Source: Fibrobacter sp. (GTDB lineage: Bacteria; Fibrobacterota; Fibrobacteria; Fibrobacterales; Fibrobacteraceae). From it: 64,000 bases of DNA. Of this stretch, positions 13,491 through 38,526 are shown piece by piece. The notes beneath the pieces were generated by a model. That model made no database searches. It saw only the letters and a program-made list of their open reading frames with translations, and was not told the DNA's origin. Position 1 is the first letter of the stretch; each line of letters opens with the position of its first letter. Made by a program: the position numbers and the translations under genes. The stretch is taken from assembly GCA_017412605.1 (NCBI GenBank), contig JAFPWY010000008.1, forward strand, positions 124,001 through 188,000, given 5' to 3'.

Positions 13491-13608
<118 letters not shown>

Positions 13609-28052: not shown

Positions 28053-31000
28053 TCAGCCTAGTTCTTGCATCAAATTATGGGTTTCGATGAGGACGGCGAT
28101 GATTTTGCGATAGTGCTCGATATCATCGTATGTGAGTGTGCGGTTTTTGCGGTCCTTGAGCCATTTTTGCGCGGGTTGGTAGCCACCGATGTAGAAGTTC
28201 CACGCCAGCTCGGGAACATTCTCGAAGCACTGCGACTTGTTGATAAAAACCTTACCCACTTTGTCTTCCCCGACTCGGTCGGGAATCTCCTTTTCATACC
28301 GAACTTCTGACACAACATTATCACCAGGAATGTTAAACGAAACCGTCAGCGGTTGTGGGATTTCTTGCATCAAGTGAAGTTTGCGAAGCTTTTCGCCAAT
28401 GGCGGCGATACGATTGAATTCCTCAGCATTCTCGGGATACGGAATTCGAGGGAAATCGATTTTCAGGAATTCCTTGTAGCGCTCGCGATAGGATGGCGAA
28501 TGGAGAACACCATAGATGTAATCAAAGATATGCTCTGGAGTCGTAGCATGTTCTTCTTGATTGTCATTTCCGCAATTTTTTTGATTGTCATTCCCGCGAA
28601 GGCGGGAATCTCCTTCTAGGCAGGCATCAATTTTTCGCCAGATGGTTTCGTCAAGGTTTGGCTTTCGCTGTTCGCCAAGATTGGCTTCGTTTTCCGTCGG
28701 ATAAAGGTAAAGTGGGAAAATGTTAGCATTATCTTTTGAAGAAAGGATAGTTTTATCAGTTATTTTATCTGAGACAAGAAATGTATATTCTCCATCTCTG
28801 CTATTTATTTTTATAGCGCACATTGCAATATTTTCCGAAAGCATCTGTTTCATAACCTTTTCCCTTGATCTCCACAGAATACGATTATCAAAACATGTCC
28901 ATCTATTATCAAAGGGTCTATAGGATGCTAGGAGAATTTTCTTTTCGTCAACAAAGAAACCTTTTTGTTTCGATGTCAATATAAAATCACCATAATTTTT
29001 TCCCAAATTATATTTTTGATTTATTTGTTCTACAGAATAAGAATTATTCACAAAATCATTTAATCTGGAAATTAACTCATTCTTTGTTTGTGCGAAAGCA
29101 AATGAATCTCCCATTGAAGTAAGACCCATTATATTTTCTTTAAAAAGGTCATCTAATTTGAATCCCGAATCATAGACATCTCGACCAACATCAGATTGCG
29201 GAATAAAAAGATAGTATGGTGATGTAGGACATATTTCTCTTAAATTCTCGTAGACTCTATGCTTTTTTAAATAATCATATTTTTCTTTTCGAAGTCCATA
29301 TAAATCTGTATAGTAGACCTTACATGTTTCCCTATTTTCTTTGTGCTTGACAAAAATATTTATGGACGTTCCAACTGTAATATCGAAAACATTTTCATCT
29401 TTTTCTCCACTTGGGGTCTTATTATTTTTCGCAGAATTTCCATGCAAATTCAGAATATATATTTCATCAAATGACTGCATTAAATTCCACCGCATTCCAC
29501 GAAAAGTCGGATTATCTAGAAATCCATTATTATTAATGTACGCAACAATTCCGCTTTTTGTTTTATCAACATAGTATTGCGCCAAACGAATGAATTTTAC
29601 ATAATCATCATTTAACCAAACTTTCTTTTCTCGTAAAGGTTCTTTACTATTCGGCTCACAACGATAGTCATTTACTTTATCAACAATCCATTCTCCGTTA
29701 TTTAACGATATTCCACTATACGGCGGGTTCCCAATCATCACCATCACGGGAGTATCGCGCTTGACGAAATTAGCTTCGCTTGCTTCTTGTGCCAACCACT
29801 GCGCAAATAGCGTTCCCGTATTGGGGTCACATTCTTCCAAGGAATTGGTTAGGTAAATACGCAGACGCTTGTTCTTTTGAGGAACGTAGCCTGTTTCGGA
29901 AAGTACCATATCGAGCTTCAAATGCGCAATCGCATAAGGAGCCATCATAAACTCGAATCCATTCAGGCGAGGCAAAAGATGTTCATCCACATAGTTTTGC
30001 CATGCACCCAAATTGCCCTGCATGCTGCTGTAAATTTTCAGCACAATCTTTGCGGGGAATGTCGCCGTACCCGTCGCAGGGTCGAGAATCTGCACACGAT
30101 GGTATTCCTTTTCCTCATGCCGCTTGTGGTCGGTGGTACGATTGTCGGTGTAAAGGTCGTTCGATCGCTTGAGTTTCACCTTGCTTGTGTCGGCAAGGCC
30201 CATCGGGAGCTTGAACGAATCCTTCAGAATATCGTCCACCGCGTTCACCATAAAATCGACAACCGGCTCCGGTGTGTAATAAACGCCGCAGGACTTTTTC
30301 TGTTTCGGGTCGTAATGGTACAGGAAGTCTTCGTAGAAATGAATCAGCGGATCGCCCTGGCCGCTTGCCTGCCCGAAGTTTTTCATCACCTTTGAAATGT
30401 CGGTAACGCGGAACGTCTCGACCAAGTCATCTACAATCCAGACGATGCTTTCGTCCATGTCGAAGCCGGCGATGCTCTGGAAAATTTTGCGCAGGAAGGG
30501 GTTCGTTTCGGGAATCAGCGTCGCCGCCTCGGCTCGCGAGAACGTGTCGGGAGTCTTGTCGTGGAGCCGCGCCGCAAACATGCCGTATGCTATCGTCTGT
30601 GCATAAATATCGGCAAAAGCCTTTTCCGTCAAATCGTGAATCAGGATGTTCTTGAAAGCATTCCACTGCCCAGCCAGTTCACCCGTCTTGTCCGTATCGT
30701 TTTCAAGCGTCTTGTGAATCGTCTCGGCAAGGAGTTTCGCCTTCGCCGCCATCATCTGCGCCAGCTTTTTCGCAGACGTAATCTTTTGCGGGAGTGCGCC
30801 CGAGAAGGAATCCACCATCTCCAAAAATTTCGTGACATTCGGCTGGACAACAACCACCTTGTCACCGCGAACTTCGGCAATGCGCACGCTATCGACAAAC
30901 TCGCCAAACTCATAGAGATGGAAATCAAGATAGTCCGTAAACAAGATGTGGTCGAGAGAATTCTTGTACCGGTTGAACTGTTCCTTGTGCTCACGGTTGC

Positions 31001-31271
31001 CGTCCAGGTCGCGGTCGTTCACGTCCTTTGCTTCGACAAACGCCACCGGAATGTTCGATGTGCCGCCCTTAGAAATGATGTAGTCCGGGGCACCGCAGTC
31101 AATGCGCCGGGGTTCGTTCGTCACCACATACTTGGGCAAGAGTTCCGACAAAAGCGAAGCCAACGCCGGACGGTAACTGTGCTCGGTCGCCTTGCCCGTC
31201 GCAAACTGCTTGGAGACTTCGGCGATGTAGCGTTCTACGGCCTGGTACTTGCTCTTATCTAAATCAGTCAT
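28053..31271 (-). CDS. Single-chain restriction-modification enzyme (type ISP/IIG-like)
   Basis: The product has 1072 residues and combines nuclease, methyltransferase and probable specificity regions. The N-terminus has a PD-(D/E)xK-like motif (APDYII, Asp63; AFVEAK, Glu80-Lys82). The methyltransferase has a YYTPEPVVDFM motif (about 331), motif I DPATGTATF (397-405) and motif IV NPPY (515-518), the signature of N6-adenine or N4-cytosine methylation. The C-terminus (YIYGVLHSPSYRERYKEFLKIDFPRIPYP) fits the type ISP/IIG target-recognition region. No helicase motifs are visible. Two palindromic repeats are inserted in frame (residues about 886-905 and 993-1003). The ATG at 31271 has AAGGA 7 bases upstream. 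AT content is high through 28700-29700, unlike its neighbours, which suggests acquisition. Confidence 0.85.
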   Translation of the reverse strand: MTDLDKSKYQAVERYIAEVSKQFATGKATEHSYRPALASLLSELLPKYVVTNEPRRIDCGAPDYIISKGGTSNIPVAFVEAKDVNDRDLDGNREHKEQFNRYKNSLDHILFTDYLDFHLYEFGEFVDSVRIAEVRGDKVVVVQPNVTKFLEMVDSFSGALPQKITSAKKLAQMMAAKAKLLAETIHKTLENDTDKTGELAGQWNAFKNILIHDLTEKAFADIYAQTIAYGMFAARLHDKTPDTFSRAEAATLIPETNPFLRKIFQSIAGFDMDESIVWIVDDLVETFRVTDISKVMKNFGQASGQGDPLIHFYEDFLYHYDPKQKKSCGVYYTPEPVVDFMVNAVDDILKDSFKLPMGLADTSKVKLKRSNDLYTDNRTTDHKRHEEKEYHRVQILDPATGTATFPAKIVLKIYSSMQGNLGAWQNYVDEHLLPRLNGFEFMMAPYAIAHLKLDMVLSETGYVPQKNKRLRIYLTNSLEECDPNTGTLFAQWLAQEASEANFVKRDTPVMVMIGNPPYSGISLNNGEWIVDKVNDYRCEPNSKEPLREKKVWLNDDYVKFIRLAQYYVDKTKSGIVAYINNNGFLDNPTFRGMRWNLMQSFDEIYILNLHGNSAKNNKTPSGEKDENVFDITVGTSINIFVKHKENRETCKVYYTDLYGLRKEKYDYLKKHRVYENLREICPTSPYYLFIPQSDVGRDVYDSGFKLDDLFKENIMGLTSMGDSFAFAQTKNELISRLNDFVNNSYSVEQINQKYNLGKNYGDFILTSKQKGFFVDEKKILLASYRPFDNRWTCFDNRILWRSREKVMKQMLSENIAMCAIKINSRDGEYTFLVSDKITDKTILSSKDNANIFPLYLYPTENEANLGEQRKPNLDETIWRKIDACLEGDSRLRGNDNQKNCGNDNQEEHATTPEHIFDYIYGVLHSPSYRERYKEFLKIDFPRIPYPENAEEFNRIAAIGEKLRKLHLMQEIPQPLTVSFNIPGDNVVSEVRYEKEIPDRVGEDKVGKVFINKSQCFENVPELAWNFYIGGYQPAQKWLKDRKNRTLTYDDIEHYRKIIAVLIETHNLMQELG
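28265..28290 (-). repeat. Palindromic repeat copy inside the restriction-modification gene (C)
   Basis: On the minus strand the copy is GGAGATTCCCGACCGAGTC followed by GGGGAAG, with the same GGAGAT left flank and GACA-like right flank as the other copies. It is read in frame as residues EIPDRVGEDK. Confidence 0.6.
28582..28613 (-). repeat. Palindromic repeat copy inside the restriction-modification gene (A)
   Basis: On the minus strand: GGAGATTCCCGCCTTCGCGG followed by GAATGACAATCA; the stem is ATTCCCGC/GCGGGAAT. It is read in frame as GDSRLRGNDNQ. A second, partial copy of its right flank (GGAAATGACAATCA) follows immediately at 28557-28575 and gives the repeated residues GNDNQ. Confidence 0.75.
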
Positions 31272-31337: not shown

Positions 31338-31531
31338 AAAAAAGGCGTGGAGCCGAATGCACCTATCTGTTCTGCGGGCTACCACACCCTTGTACGCAAT
31401 AAGCACAAACGACCCACGCCCCAATTGGGACGTGAGCGCTCGTCTTATTCTCGCGTACTTTGAAAGTGGTAGTTTCAGAACAGAGAATAAGAGACGAATC
31501 TCAAAAACCGGTCGCCCAATGCCAAAAGGCA
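31338..31531 (-). ncRNA. Structured RNA of about 190 nt, 6S-RNA-like rod architecture
   Basis: Nested stems build one long interrupted rod: 31476-31484 with 31366-31374, 31466-31472 with 31379-31385, 31453-31458 with 31392-31397, 31444-31449 with 31398-31403, 31440-31443 with 31409-31412, and 31427-31433 with 31416-31422. The last stem has a G-U pair only if the RNA is read from the minus strand. GGCG..CCG and CGG..CGCC near the ends could close it, and a GAGA-TTCG-TCTC hairpin lies on the 5' side. A promoter (31538-31566) precedes it and a T run (TTTTTTGTTTTTTT) ends it. Size and rod shape resemble 6S RNA, but I cannot match the conserved 6S bubble bases, so identity is inferred. Confidence 0.55.
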
Positions 31532-31537
31532 ACGGGC

Positions 31538-31566
31538 TATTTAGGGGGAAATATAACTTATTGCAA
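31538..31566 (-). promoter_or_regulatory. Sigma-70-like promoter for the structured RNA
   Basis: On the minus strand TTGCAA (31561-31566) is separated by exactly 17 bases from TAAATA (31538-31543). Transcription would start near 31531. Confidence 0.5.
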
Positions 31567-31574
31567 ATAGAATA

Positions 31575-31603
31575 GGAGATCCCCGCCTTCGCGGGGATGA
31601 CAA
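31575..31603 (+). repeat. Palindromic repeat copy, intergenic (B)
   Basis: GGAGATCCCCGCCTTCGCGG followed by GGATGACAA. The stem differs from copy A by paired changes (ATTCCC/GGGAAT to ATCCCC/GGGGAT), so base pairing is kept. Confidence 0.7.
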
Positions 31604-34059: not shown

Positions 34060-35307
34060 TTAGCGAGCCACAGACACCATCTTGACCCGGTTGCCGTCCT
34101 TGACCATGTAGACACCGGTCATGCCGAACTTGGCCTTGATGGCGTCAACGAGGTTCACTCCTTCAGCCCTGGTCACGACACCGAGCAGGCGCCCCTGCAT
34201 ATCGAACACCTGACATTCAGAGGCATTGACCTGCATATGGAACGATTCTGGGATGGCATTGATGACGGCCTCGCTGGCTATGGAACTGCTCACCGGAATA
34301 ATGCCGATCGTCGCAGAACTGGATGTAACGTTGGAACTGGAAATCGGCGAAAGGATGGTAACGATAGAAGACGAAGAAACCCTATCAGGCCAGAAATTCC
34401 TGCTGCTCGAAGCCGGAGCCGCCACGCTGGAGCTGCTCCTATGGGAACGGCGGCTGCTCGAACTCGAGCGAACCGAAGCGCTGGACACCGCTCTCCTTGA
34501 GCTGCTGGATTTCGGCGTAACCTGCGTTTGGGTTTCCGAGCCGCTCGGACTCCCCTTGTTGCTCATCTTGAAATACGTAAAGTCGATCTTGCCCGTCGCG
34601 CCGCCACCGGCTTCGGCCAGCACCTTGACCTCGTACATCTTCCCGAGTTTCAAGCCGACTTCCGCCCATTTCTTGAAATGGGCGGTAATGTCGATATGGC
34701 CGCACTGGCGGGCATTGCGGCGCACGCTGAAGAACTGCGGGAAAGTCGACGTCCCTTCGATAGAAGGCTGGTTCACGCGGGTGTACGTGTAGATGTCGTA
34801 CGTGTCTCCATCCACGGTGATTTCACCCTTCTTGGTGCCAAGATATTGCGTGCTCGGCTTGGTGAACCAGTCGTCCACAATGTAATACTCGACCAGCGGA
34901 TTCTGCGTCCATCCATAAATGCCTATATAGGAATATGCCGCATTGCCCGATTTCGTAAACTTGTAATCGGCCGTAAAATAGCCAATCTGGTCATGCGTCT
35001 GCGAACTATTGTACTTGAATCCAACGCGAGCCAGGAAATCGTTCGAACCGTTCCATTCCGCAGAGAATGTCCCGTCGTTGTAGTAAGTCATCGAGTTATT
35101 GCCACCCTGGTACCAGATTTCGTAATGGTATCCCGAGTTCCCGATATTCCCTGTAACGCTGGAATTGTTTTGGCCCCTGGTTGTAGTTCCGGAACCGCTA
35201 TGGCCGCCCGCTTCAGAACAGGCATCCGCGAATGCTGGCGTCGCCAATCCAATGGCAATGCCGAAAAACAAGGCTACTTTCGTAACCTCTAAGAACTTGT
35301 TACTCAT
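34060..35307 (-). CDS. GH11 endo-1,4-beta-xylanase with poly-serine linker and C-terminal module
   Basis: The product has 415 residues and hydrolyses internal xylan bonds outside the cell. The signal peptide ends near FADA. The GH11 jelly-roll spans about 45-250. The nucleophile is Glu140 in NPLVEYYIVDDW, the acid/base is Glu232 in LAEAGGGATG, and the FPQFFSVRR and GHIDITAHFKKW strands are present. A Ser/Arg linker (RRAVSSASVRSSSSSRRSHR, about 270-305) is unusually basic. The last 50 residues are the shared module (VFDMQGRLLGVVTRAEGVNLVDAIKAKF...YMVKDGNRVKMVSVAR), possibly a secretion or attachment signal. The ATG at 35307 starts the signal peptide; the frame upstream runs into the leader and terminator. 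Confidence 0.93.
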   Translation of the reverse strand: MSNKFLEVTKVALFFGIAIGLATPAFADACSEAGGHSGSGTTTRGQNNSSVTGNIGNSGYHYEIWYQGGNNSMTYYNDGTFSAEWNGSNDFLARVGFKYNSSQTHDQIGYFTADYKFTKSGNAAYSYIGIYGWTQNPLVEYYIVDDWFTKPSTQYLGTKKGEITVDGDTYDIYTYTRVNQPSIEGTSTFPQFFSVRRNARQCGHIDITAHFKKWAEVGLKLGKMYEVKVLAEAGGGATGKIDFTYFKMSNKGSPSGSETQTQVTPKSSSSRRAVSSASVRSSSSSRRSHRSSSSVAAPASSSRNFWPDRVSSSSIVTILSPISSSNVTSSSATIGIIPVSSSIASEAVINAIPESFHMQVNASECQVFDMQGRLLGVVTRAEGVNLVDAIKAKFGMTGVYMVKDGNRVKMVSVAR

Positions 35308-35462
35308 GTCCAACTCCATTAATGCCAACAGTCCCCCTTTGCATTCGCAAAAAGGGCCCATTGGCCAACCTAGTGAGTAAAATAAACTGAAATTTTCCGC
35401 AACGTGCCGACTGTAAACATTTGTTCGTTGCAAAAATGTCAAAAACAAGCTAATTTCAGCGC

Positions 35463-35497
35463 AAAAGAAAAGGTACCCCGCCGAACGAGGCACCTTT
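35463..35497 (-). terminator. Terminator of the second GH11 gene
   Basis: The same imperfect hairpin as 33984-34022 (AAAGGTGCC / GGC..ACCTTT), 39 bases after the stop codon at 35536. The last 190 bases before the 34060-35307 gene are therefore a duplicated terminator-plus-leader cassette. Confidence 0.7.
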
Positions 35498-35535
35498 AAC
35501 AATATAAGGAGTGTTTTAGATTTGAAAAGCTTTTG

Positions 35536-37122
35536 TTAGCGGGTCACGGAAATCGACTTGACCTTGCCGCCAATCTTCACCATGTAGACACCGGCCTTGC
35601 CGAACTTGGCGAAGATAGCGTCGTTGAGGGAAGCGCCATTGGCGAAGGTTACGCTACCCAGAGAACGGCCCTGCATATCGAACACCTGAGCCACATGGCT
35701 GGTCCTGTTCATGCGGACATTTGCCAAGGTCAGCGGATCATCCGGATTGGTGTTCACGCCCGGATCGGTGCCCGGATCAGTGCCAGGATCCGTACCCGGA
35801 TCAACATTAGCTGCACCCGGCAGGCTGAACTTCACATAGTCCACATTCGTATTTGCATTCGCGATAGTGATGCGGAGCTTGTGTTCACCAGCAGTCAGGG
35901 TTGCCTTGCCCTTGGCAAGTTCATAGGCATTCCAGTCATCTGTAGTTCCCGTGAAAGCGAGAGAAGCAAGAGCCGTGCCGTCCAGGGACAGTTCAAGCGT
36001 ACCTGCACCGGAACCATTCGAAACGTTGGCTTCGATATCGTATTCACCGGCCTGAGTAACGTTAATGGTGTATTCGAGCCATTCATCAGCAGCCGTGTAG
36101 CCGATAGCCTTGCCAGAGCCGCCATTCACGATGTCAACATAGGCATAGTCTTCACCGCGATAGTCGTGGTCACCGTCATCACCCGATGCACCCTGCGCAC
36201 CGCTGTACGTAACGCCTTCGTTGCCTTCGTCAAAGTTTTCGGCTTCGACAGTACCCGGAATCGTGGCAGCAGTGCCACCAAACGCCTTGCGTTCGATTTC
36301 CTTCGGCGGAACGACCTCGGAAGGAGATCCGTTATCCTTCATATCGAAGTAGGTGTATTCCACGGAACCCGTAGCGCCACCACCAGCTTCGGTCATGAGC
36401 ATCACTTCGGTCACCTTACCGAACTTCAGCGATGCAGAGCCACCGCCCTTGGAACCCTTCAGCTGCTTGTTCTGGCCAGTGAAGAGTTCGTCCCACTTTT
36501 TGAAGTGGGCGGAAATATCGATATGGCCGCACTGACGGGGATTCTGACGGATACTAAAGAACTGAACGAACGTGGAAGTTCCCGACTTGGAGGGTTCCTG
36601 CTGGCGGAGGAAGGCATGGATGGTATACTTGGCTCCATCAACTTCGATTTCGCCAAACTTTTCACCGACGTAGTTTTCGCTCGGCTTGCTGTACCAGTCG
36701 TCCACGATATAGTATTCGGTTTCCGGGTTAGCGGTCCAGCCATAAATACCGATATAGCCGTACTGGGCAGAACCCGTCTTGCTGTACTTGTAATCAACAG
36801 TGAAATACTTGGATTTATGGTCAATACCGCCACCACCATACTGGTAACCCACACGGGTCAGATAGTCGTTGGAATTGTTCCAGTTGGCCTTGAACGTACC
36901 ATTGTCATAGTAAGTCATCGAAGCGCTGCCGCCCTGGTACCACTGTTCGTAACCCCACGGGGTGCCACTGATAGAGCCGACCGAGTTGCCACTCACGCCA
37001 TGGCCGGAACCTGCAGACTTGCTCATCTGATCCTTACAAGCATCCACAGCGAAGGCGCTGCCGAGGCCGAAAGACAGTGCAAATGCGAGGCTTAATTTGG
37101 TTATTTTGGAATAGTTCTTCAT
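35536..37122 (-). CDS. GH11 xylanase with CBM6 carbohydrate-binding module
   Basis: The product has 528 residues. A signal peptide (to about residue 25) is followed by the GH11 domain (about 45-260) with nucleophile Glu136 in NPETEYYIVDDW and acid/base Glu245 in MTEAGGGATG. A CBM6 module follows (about 288-425): TIPGTVEAENFDEG, ADEWLEYTINV and NVDYVKFSLPG are typical and predict xylan binding. A linker of repeated PGTD units replaces the poly-serine linker of its neighbours. The C-terminal module is present (VFDMQGRSLGSVTFANG...ISVTR). A palindrome at 37199-37216 lies about 77 bases before the start. Confidence 0.94.
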   Translation of the reverse strand: MKNYSKITKLSLAFALSFGLGSAFAVDACKDQMSKSAGSGHGVSGNSVGSISGTPWGYEQWYQGGSASMTYYDNGTFKANWNNSNDYLTRVGYQYGGGGIDHKSKYFTVDYKYSKTGSAQYGYIGIYGWTANPETEYYIVDDWYSKPSENYVGEKFGEIEVDGAKYTIHAFLRQQEPSKSGTSTFVQFFSIRQNPRQCGHIDISAHFKKWDELFTGQNKQLKGSKGGGSASLKFGKVTEVMLMTEAGGGATGSVEYTYFDMKDNGSPSEVVPPKEIERKAFGGTAATIPGTVEAENFDEGNEGVTYSGAQGASGDDGDHDYRGEDYAYVDIVNGGSGKAIGYTAADEWLEYTINVTQAGEYDIEANVSNGSGAGTLELSLDGTALASLAFTGTTDDWNAYELAKGKATLTAGEHKLRITIANANTNVDYVKFSLPGAANVDPGTDPGTDPGTDPGVNTNPDDPLTLANVRMNRTSHVAQVFDMQGRSLGSVTFANGASLNDAIFAKFGKAGVYMVKIGGKVKSISVTR

Positions 37123-37198
37123 AATTTACTCCTCATAAAGTTATTGTTTATAATATATGTGCTAAACCGCAAGAAATAGCGTAAAAAGACCAAAAGTC

Positions 37199-37216
37199 GT
37201 TGTTATAAGAAACAAC
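37199..37216. promoter_or_regulatory. Palindromic operator candidate upstream of the CBM6 xylanase gene
   Basis: GTTGTT - 6 bases - AACAAC, followed outward by the conserved string ACAAAACAGTTTACAA. It is 77-94 bases before the start codon and about 40 bases upstream of the AT-rich TATATTATA box. The matching site for the next xylanase gene is at 38601-38620. Confidence 0.5.
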
Positions 37217-37259
37217 ACAAAACAGTTTACAAACAATCATTTCACAGCTTTTTTTTGAC

Positions 37260-37293
37260 AAAAAAAGACCCGGTTCCGGGAGGGAATCGGGTC
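37260..37293 (-). terminator. Terminator of the third GH11 gene
   Basis: GACCCGATTCC / GGAACCGGGTC stem (one mismatch) followed by seven T residues on the minus strand, 22 bases after the stop at 37315. Confidence 0.85.
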
Positions 37294-37314
37294 AAAAATC
37301 GTTAAAATCGCGAT

Positions 37315-38526
37315 TTAGCGTTCTACAGAGATCATCTTAGCGACGGAACCGCGCTTGACCATGTAGATGGCCGAACGAGCGAACTTGCTTCCGACGGCAT
37401 CCTTGAGAGACGAGCCATCCCTCAATTCGACCAGGCCAAGGAACTTGCCCTGCATGTCGAACACCTGGTAGGTGCCAGCCATGCCAAAGTTCTTGATTTC
37501 GACCGGGAGGGCATTAGTTCCGGAGCTGCTGGAGCCGGTAGCCACAGCCGGAGCCACGGAGCTAGAAGAGTTGCTCGGGGCAACAATAGCAGACGGATCT
37601 GCACTGCTAGACGTAGCGACAACAGAGCTGGAAGCCGGAGCGTCAGAGCTAGAGGACGCGGCTACAGAGCTGGAGGCCGGAGCCTTATCAGAACTGGACT
37701 TCGGAGCCGAAGAACTGGATTTCGGGGCTTCGGAGCTAGAAGACGGAGCTGCAGATTCGAGAGGATGAGCCTTGTCGGTCATCTTGAAGTACGAAACGTC
37801 GAACGAGCCCGAACCACCACCGGCTTCGACAAGCACCTTGGCTTCGTACATCTTACCCATCCTCATGCCGAGTTCTTCCCACTTCTTGAAGTGAGCCGTG
37901 ATGTCGATATGACCGCAAGAACGGGCACCCCTACGCTTGCTGAAGTACTGCGGGAAGGTCTGGTTACCCTTGATAGAGGGGGCGTTATTACGCGTGTTCT
38001 GATAAATTTCATAGGTTGCACCATCAACCGTGAACTCGCCCTTCCTCTGGCCCAGAAGGTTTGCACCCGGTTCGCTGAACCAGTCATCCACGATGTAGTA
38101 TTCCACGAGCGGATCAACCGTCCAACCATAGATACCGATGTAGTTATAGCCACCGGCACTACCTGATTTGCTCCACTTGAAGTAAGCATCAATAGGACCA
38201 AGTTCACTGTAAGACTTATCTTCGTTGTACTTGAAACCGACACGGGCAAGGAAGTCGCCGGTGCCATTCCAGCTGGCCTTGTACGTACCGTTGTCATAGA
38301 ACGTCATGTTATTGTTGCCACCCTGGTACCAGATTTCGTAATGGTACGGAGAGCTACCGACGTTCCCTGTAACGCTCTGGTTATTCTGGCCCTGGGTCGT
38401 CTTGCTATCGCCCTGGTGGCCCATTTCGTCTTTACAGGCATCGATTTCCTGGGCAAAAGAAAGACCTACGCCGCAGGAAAATGCAAGCGCAAGGCCTATT
38501 TTGAACATTTTTGATACTTTTTTCAT
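37315..38526 (-). CDS. GH11 xylanase with long poly-serine linker
   Basis: The product has 403 residues. A signal peptide (GLALAFSCGVGLSFA-QE) leads to the GH11 domain (about 50-250), very similar to that of the 34060-35307 gene (PYHYEIWYQGGNNNMTFYDNGTYKASW). The nucleophile is Glu142 (DPLVEYYIVDDW) and the acid/base is Glu234 (LVEAGGGSGSF). Residues about 258-330 are a Ser/Ala/Pro linker with repeats of the APKSSS/APASSS type. The C-terminal module follows (VFDMQGKFLGLVELRDG...YMVKRGSVAKMISVER). TAAGAGGAGT precedes the ATG. The palindrome at 38601-38620 is about 75 bases upstream. Confidence 0.94.
   Translation of the reverse strand: MKKVSKMFKIGLALAFSCGVGLSFAQEIDACKDEMGHQGDSKTTQGQNNQSVTGNVGSSPYHYEIWYQGGNNNMTFYDNGTYKASWNGTGDFLARVGFKYNEDKSYSELGPIDAYFKWSKSGSAGGYNYIGIYGWTVDPLVEYYIVDDWFSEPGANLLGQRKGEFTVDGATYEIYQNTRNNAPSIKGNQTFPQYFSKRRGARSCGHIDITAHFKKWEELGMRMGKMYEAKVLVEAGGGSGSFDVSYFKMTDKAHPLESAAPSSSSEAPKSSSSAPKSSSDKAPASSSVAASSSSDAPASSSVVATSSSADPSAIVAPSNSSSSVAPAVATGSSSSGTNALPVEIKNFGMAGTYQVFDMQGKFLGLVELRDGSSLKDAVGSKFARSAIYMVKRGSVAKMISVER

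Follow-up and report, generated by a model that had tools for sequence, protein, structure and literature searches.

A putative two-state RNA leader ahead of restriction-modification and surface genes in Fibrobacter

How bacteria time the expression of restriction-modification genes is little known, and we know of no restriction-modification systems that are gated by a common RNA leader. C proteins exert local protein control over such genes. The locus described here resembles those governed by C proteins and by RptR (PMC12255303) in that restriction-modification operons would be controlled locally; there the control is by a protein, whereas the conserved element here is a putative RNA leader that many unrelated systems share. 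With attenuators and transcriptional riboswitches it shares the position in a 5' leader, a co-directional gene, a predicted intrinsic terminator and a predicted, mutually exclusive antiterminator. It differs from them in having no known ligand and no Rfam match, in its predicted antiterminator, a long rod that would arise by strand exchange between two hairpins, and in its targets, which are restriction-modification and surface genes. The put, EAR and LoaP hairpins are likewise structured RNAs near the 5' ends of operons; they are not known to carry a competing terminator of their own. 6S RNA (RF00013) is also a rod of about 200 nt, but the family described here is multicopy, stands ahead of genes, has an alternative terminator fold and does not match the 6S model. 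Searches of the open-licence literature returned no paper whose title or abstract opening describes a leader RNA shared by restriction-modification genes, or this RNA in Fibrobacter. By text word search, the words Fibrobacter and restriction are absent from PMC11109978 and PMC8632094, and Fibrobacter occurs once in PMC2864571, in a reference title.

In the window, that is, the whole stretch of 64,000 nucleotides of Fibrobacter sp. DNA that was analysed, the minus strand of positions 31338-31566 folds with a calculated energy of -92.8 kcal/mol (z -7.10, with 0 of 200 shuffles as good); the plus strand folds less well (z -3.96). The nested minus-strand stems described in an earlier note on this DNA are borne out by these values, and the weaker plus strand agrees with its remark that one stem is stabilised by a G-U pair on the minus strand only. 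A T run after a G+C-rich 3' arm and the downstream restriction-modification gene are found as well. Its promoter and its size are not upheld. TAAATA had been read as the downstream hexamer of a promoter TTGCAA-17-TAAATA, but TAAATAG aligns to a conserved GACATAG block at the presumed transcript start, and the predicted -10 box is the TATATT further upstream. With GACATAG as the presumed start, the RNA would measure about 206 nt to the U run, not about 190 nt. On sequence grounds, the minus strand carries a structured leader RNA from 31543 to 31338, with the following parts and the gene behind it:

31550-31555, minus strand: predicted -10 promoter box TATATT; a -10-like hexamer is present in 112 of 115 family copies
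31537-31543, minus strand: TAAATAG, the window's version of the conserved GACATAG; presumed 5' end of the transcript
31514-31537, minus strand: P0 hairpin, 10 pairs, covaries independently
31491-31502, minus strand: P1 hairpin GAGA-UUCG-UCUC; 97.4% of cells paired in alignment A3
31483-31491, minus strand: A strand; partner A' (terminator form) or C' (rod)
31476-31482, minus strand: V1, freely varying; partner V1'; 97.8% of cells paired
31462-31476, minus strand: h1 mini-hairpin GAAA/UUUC, its 7-nt loop complementary to the h2 loop
31453-31458, minus strand: V2, freely varying; partner V2'; 98.1% of cells paired
31444-31452, minus strand: A' strand; partner A (terminator form) or C (rod)
31427-31443, minus strand: B, the putative antiterminator strand; partner B'
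31405-31422, minus strand: B', the shared strand; partner B (rod, read-through) or T' (terminator)
31398-31404, minus strand: C strand; partner A' (rod) or C' (terminator form)
31392-31397, minus strand: V2', partner of V2
31376-31389, minus strand: h2 mini-hairpin GGG/CCC, its loop complementary to h1
31368-31374, minus strand: V1', partner of V1
31362-31367, minus strand: C' strand; partner C or A
31344-31355, minus strand: T', G+C-rich 3' arm of the putative intrinsic terminator; partner B'
31338-31343, minus strand: terminator U run
28053-31271, minus strand: type IIG (ISP-like) restriction-modification gene (PADLOC E 1.4e-299; Pfam Type_ISP_C)

The start codon of the type IIG gene is probably the one at 31271, which is conserved in relatives. 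Hairpin P1 overlaps the outer extension of hairpin A:A'. P0 has 87.2% of its cells paired, with 99 two-sided changes against 31.2 in shuffled alignments (47 sequences, alignment A4, out of 78 distinct P0 segments). A leader peptide was not evident when the sequences were read by eye. Elsewhere on the minus strand, at 34060-38526, three tandem paralogous secreted proteins are encoded, which resemble GH11-type xylanases in sequence.

At the locus no Rfam family reaches its gathering score, and over the whole window Rfam matches just one tRNA (13535-13608). A permissive scan returned FtrB (E 0.013), ceN108 (E 0.17), isrC (E 0.55) and others, all below the gathering score; we regard these weak matches as chance, and FtrB and CRISPR-DR28 sit on a neighbouring palindromic repeat. 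This repeat, of the CCCGCCTTCGCGGGGATGAC type, occupies 31582-31601, immediately ahead of the predicted RNA promoter. A nearly identical repeat falls within the coding sequence of the restriction gene, at 28587-28606, where it is read as ...SRLRGNDNQ... around residue 900. The earlier note had proposed 6S RNA from the rod shape and the size, a novel RNA as equally possible and, from the position in front of the gene, an attenuator; the first of these fares badly. No Rfam 6S match was found at the locus, whether with curated thresholds or with a cut-off relaxed to E 10, and a search with RF00013 matched 0 of 37 same-genus genomes and 5 of 14 control genomes. The predicted rod has the h1/h2 internal region, without a large unpaired bubble. 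With many copies per genome, always ahead of a gene, we give practically no credence to a 6S RNA or a 6S-like polymerase decoy. The novel RNA and the attenuator have fared better: pairing is kept by compensatory changes in related loci, and a putative terminator that competes with the rod stands ahead of the gene.

The RNA in the window is, by sequence comparison, one copy of a leader family that is absent from Rfam 15. BLAST searches with the stretch matched all 37 same-genus genomes and none of 23 outside the genus (37 of 60 in total). In the related loci, homology starts near the promoter and stops at the T run, and the flanks beyond differ. A covariance model built from 23 copies (R1) finds matches in 79 of 80 Fibrobacter genomes and in 90 of 167 genomes of the phylum, spread over 6 of 40 genera; outside the genus, ten of these genomes belong to Fibrobacteraceae and one to another family. 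Since copies and genomes are related, such counts are not independent. Matching genomes have 1 to 17 copies; the window has one and its genome five. The isolate F. intestinalis ATCC 43854 also carries the RNA. The single match to an Rfam family in ten related loci, DUF3800-XI at L294 2710-2760, lies outside the RNA. In a longer subclass (L291-L320, about 226-237 nt), the B:B' tip is enlarged by additional sequence, and the genes that follow encode C5 methylases, Tsp45I-like enzymes and Fib_succ_major lipoproteins. Some contigs bearing the RNA are labelled Bacteroidales, Bacteroides or archaeon (L202, L213, L215, L220, L233, L259) and may be misbinned Fibrobacter contigs or cases of transfer. 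Phage and plasmid collections gave no BLAST match with a single-copy query, and viral contigs no exact-pattern match, searches by which divergent phage or plasmid copies would be missed.

The main set for the following comparisons has 126 copies, which are 134 model matches minus 8, namely low-scoring or cut second matches in L087, L108, L147, L149 and L150 and antisense or overlapping matches in L096, L132 and L134; the same exclusions apply to the base frequencies, the T-run counts and the cross-pairing test. Alignment A2 was made from A1 by omitting L002, L034 and seven other rows, and L003 and L031 were left out of one early comparison as duplicates. The GACATAG block is present with at most 1 mismatch in 115 of the 126 copies, and in 112 of these 115 a -10-like hexamer lies 3-18 nt upstream of it. 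The U run has at least 5 T in 123 copies and at least 4 T in all 126. A -10-like hexamer in the 16-nt segment tested between U run and gene, which is a limited control, occurs in 2 of 126 copies only.

The orientation of the family is fixed. In the main set, the longer downstream frame is co-directional with the RNA in all 124 copies that are long enough for this test (two are not); a second set gives 39 of 40. The median gene start lies 71 nt past the end of the RNA model; the upstream frames are mixed, with 8 sense and 21 antisense. The many copies with differing neighbours would also suit a dispersed DNA repeat, MITE-like or a cassette recombination site, whose palindromes act as DNA, and several genomes do have a small gene module flanked by two copies 1.8 kb apart. 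We consider such a repeat very unlikely, as the orientation to the gene is not random, the promoter box lies outside the palindrome, a U run is present, and the helices, including G-U pairs, covary freely. As to the module itself, copies in L075, L082, L084, L116 and L126 precede a set of small genes (proteins of about 224, 139 and 118 aa), and in L082 a second copy of the RNA follows 1.8 kb on, and then an ISP restriction gene.

Orientation and distance also bear on the idea of a free-standing small RNA that acts in trans, has its own terminator and is followed by neighbour genes with promoters of their own. Its own promoter-like box, the U run and the very stable rod fit this idea, but orientation and short distance are kept across very different genes, few promoter-like hexamers follow the U run in the tested 16 nt, and both alternative folds are kept. 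Moreover, the copies within a genome show no sign of avoiding cross-pairing. We looked for such copy-specific avoidance and found no support for it: arms pair with their own partners in 98.8%, cross-pairing amounts to 42% within and 46% between genomes, and compatible pairs within genomes are not below shuffles (4 against 5.2, with 134 of 300 shuffles at or below). A trans-acting RNA therefore appears unlikely to us.

The gene classes behind the RNA are diverse. The first genes after the 126 copies fall into 42 clusters, of which 40 representatives were scanned against Pfam (all but L182 and the 55-aa L111, which lies at the end of a contig). They include N6_Mtase/HsdM, HsdR, Type ISP, type III Mod and MmeI proteins as well as EcoRI methylase, D12 and C5 methylases; PADLOC adds DISARM DrmD and an HKD+Snf2 protein. 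By a hand sum over clusters, 83 of the 126 copies precede methyltransferase or restriction genes, in a set that is biased by coming from the top of the score list. Other first genes encode a TPR protein (8 copies), a weakly type II methylase-like protein (7), a 224-aa protein (5) and EndoU nucleases (3), and the remainder is various. When all 73 copies in six genomes are considered, 34 precede restriction-modification genes (two weakly), about 22 precede genes of lipoproteins or secreted proteins, and the rest other genes, by a hand reading in which only some proteins were scanned and lipoproteins were called mostly from N-terminal sequence; the downstream-gene comparison in these genomes took 72 of the 73 copies, leaving out G078:C5:365567. 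In the reverse direction, 12 of 32 N6_Mtase matches and 13 of 26 C5 methylase matches in the six genomes have a same-strand copy no more than 2 kb upstream, against about 0.4% expected by chance (5 of 37 and 3 of 29 rows, respectively, were dropped as second fragments of listed genes). These counts speak for a strong enrichment of restriction-modification, yet the association is neither exclusive nor universal: over half of the methylase matches in the six genomes are without the RNA, and many copies stand before non-defence genes. At L131:581-4621, a copy precedes genes for a 385-aa cysteine-motif protein, presumably radical-SAM-like by its motif, a PD-Lambda-5_A-like protein and an SNF2 helicase, which are possibly an undescribed defence operon.

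Two folds can be drawn for the segment order A-V1-h1-V2-A'-B-B'-C-V2'-h2-V1'-C'-T'. The rod is made up of A:C', V1:V1', V2:V2', A':C and B:B', together with the pairing between the h1 and h2 loops; in the terminator form, the pairings are A:A', C:C' and B':T'. The pairings of both folds are conserved across the family, and the folds are mutually exclusive, as both use A, A', B', C and C'. For the rod, 97.1% of cells pair in 114 aligned copies (105 distinct), and the covariation in related loci, a check that the earlier note had named, amounts to 906 two-sided changes against 233 in shuffled alignments, a count that leans towards the rod because the alignment was fitted to it. The rod's covariation score is 0.511, and 0.049-0.101 when the partners are slid. 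An unfitted MAFFT alignment of 23 sequences gives 96.6% paired cells and 116 two-sided changes against 29.9. Pairs between the h1 and h2 loops are formed in 99.6% of cells, with two-sided changes at all 7 pairs, the stems of the two mini-hairpins in 92.9%, and as many as four kinds of Watson-Crick pair occur at individual positions of V1:V1'. The terminator form, which was no part of the covariance model, has 95.2% of its cells paired, with 49 two-sided changes against 10.7 in shuffled alignments. Being nearly constant in sequence, its helices show little covariation. B' and T' pair in 99.3% of cells, and their stem has compensatory changes at two positions beyond single sequences (U-A to C-G in 7, C-G to U-A in 4 sequences). 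The outermost part of the A:A' extension holds less well: at two of its positions, 30 and 42 of about 100 sequences lack the pair.

The two-partner strands A, A', B, B', C and C' are frozen, with mean major-base frequencies of 0.86-0.98, and the strands that pair only in the rod are free (0.52-0.53 for V1 and V2, 0.72 for the loops). Near-invariant shared strands next to free rod-only strands are the pattern expected of a two-state RNA; T' is an exception, frozen as well (0.96) despite a single named partner. Another reading takes the RNA as a binding platform for a processive antitermination factor (LoaP, RfaH or EAR/put-like) rather than a bistable switch. A structured 5' leader ahead of operons of foreign character and the strongly conserved GACATAG at its 5' end would suit a platform, but the loops to be recognised vary freely and no NusG paralogue was seen. 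Five RNA-bearing genomes (G063, G032, G078, G005, G158) have one NusG-domain match each, which makes a factor of the NusG-paralogue type unlikely; none was found in the window's assembly (G000). Overall, we think it quite unlikely that the RNA serves as such a platform.

Together, our data suggest that the RNA is probably a cis-acting leader that works as a bistable transcription attenuator, akin to an orphan riboswitch, and gates restriction-modification and surface genes. RNA polymerase would start about 8 nt past TATATT. P0 would fold first, then A:A' with h1 in its loop, and then B:B'. On emerging, the segment C-V2'-h2-V1'-C' could undergo strand exchange with A..A' to form the long rod, probably nucleated by the contact between the h1 and h2 loops. 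The rod would hold B' on B and leave T' single; by keeping B' from T', it would permit transcription to read through into the restriction gene. Alternatively, C:C' would close on itself and B' would pair with T', giving a terminator stem before the U run at which transcription would stop. The sequence family, its two exclusive folds, the constant orientation towards the gene and the gene classes come from our comparisons; transcription, termination, the order of folding and the default form are what we infer here, with the rod predicted to be the more stable form. Prefix folding of the window copy predicts that A:A' forms before B:B' and that the rod follows after V2' and V1' have emerged. Energy calculations make the rod the best fold in about 95 of the 100 copies used (the first 100 of the 114 rows of A3); it is a median 9.4 kcal/mol better than the terminator form, which ranges from 18.7 kcal/mol weaker to 11.0 stronger. 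The calculated preference implies that something must oppose the rod for the switch to matter. No conserved pocket is evident; it is helices and loops that vary freely. The loop closed by the terminator would be about 60 nt long, which is unusual for an intrinsic terminator.

In nearly all Fibrobacter genomes, a single RNA family precedes methylase genes of types I, II, IIG, III and others. Finding what shifts the RNA between its folds would reveal the on/off signal of a defence repertoire, and the predicted loop-to-loop exchange of strands would offer a neat model, taken from nature, of how an RNA can be bistable. It is possible, if rather doubtful at present, that the copies form an RNA-switch regulon throughout the Fibrobacteraceae, in which defence (nearly all restriction-modification types and other operons) and surface lipoproteins share one signal. 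If so, a single cue, such as an attack by phage or the entry into a new host, would act on immunity and cell surface alike, and the shared leader would be the RNA-level counterpart of a global immune regulator.
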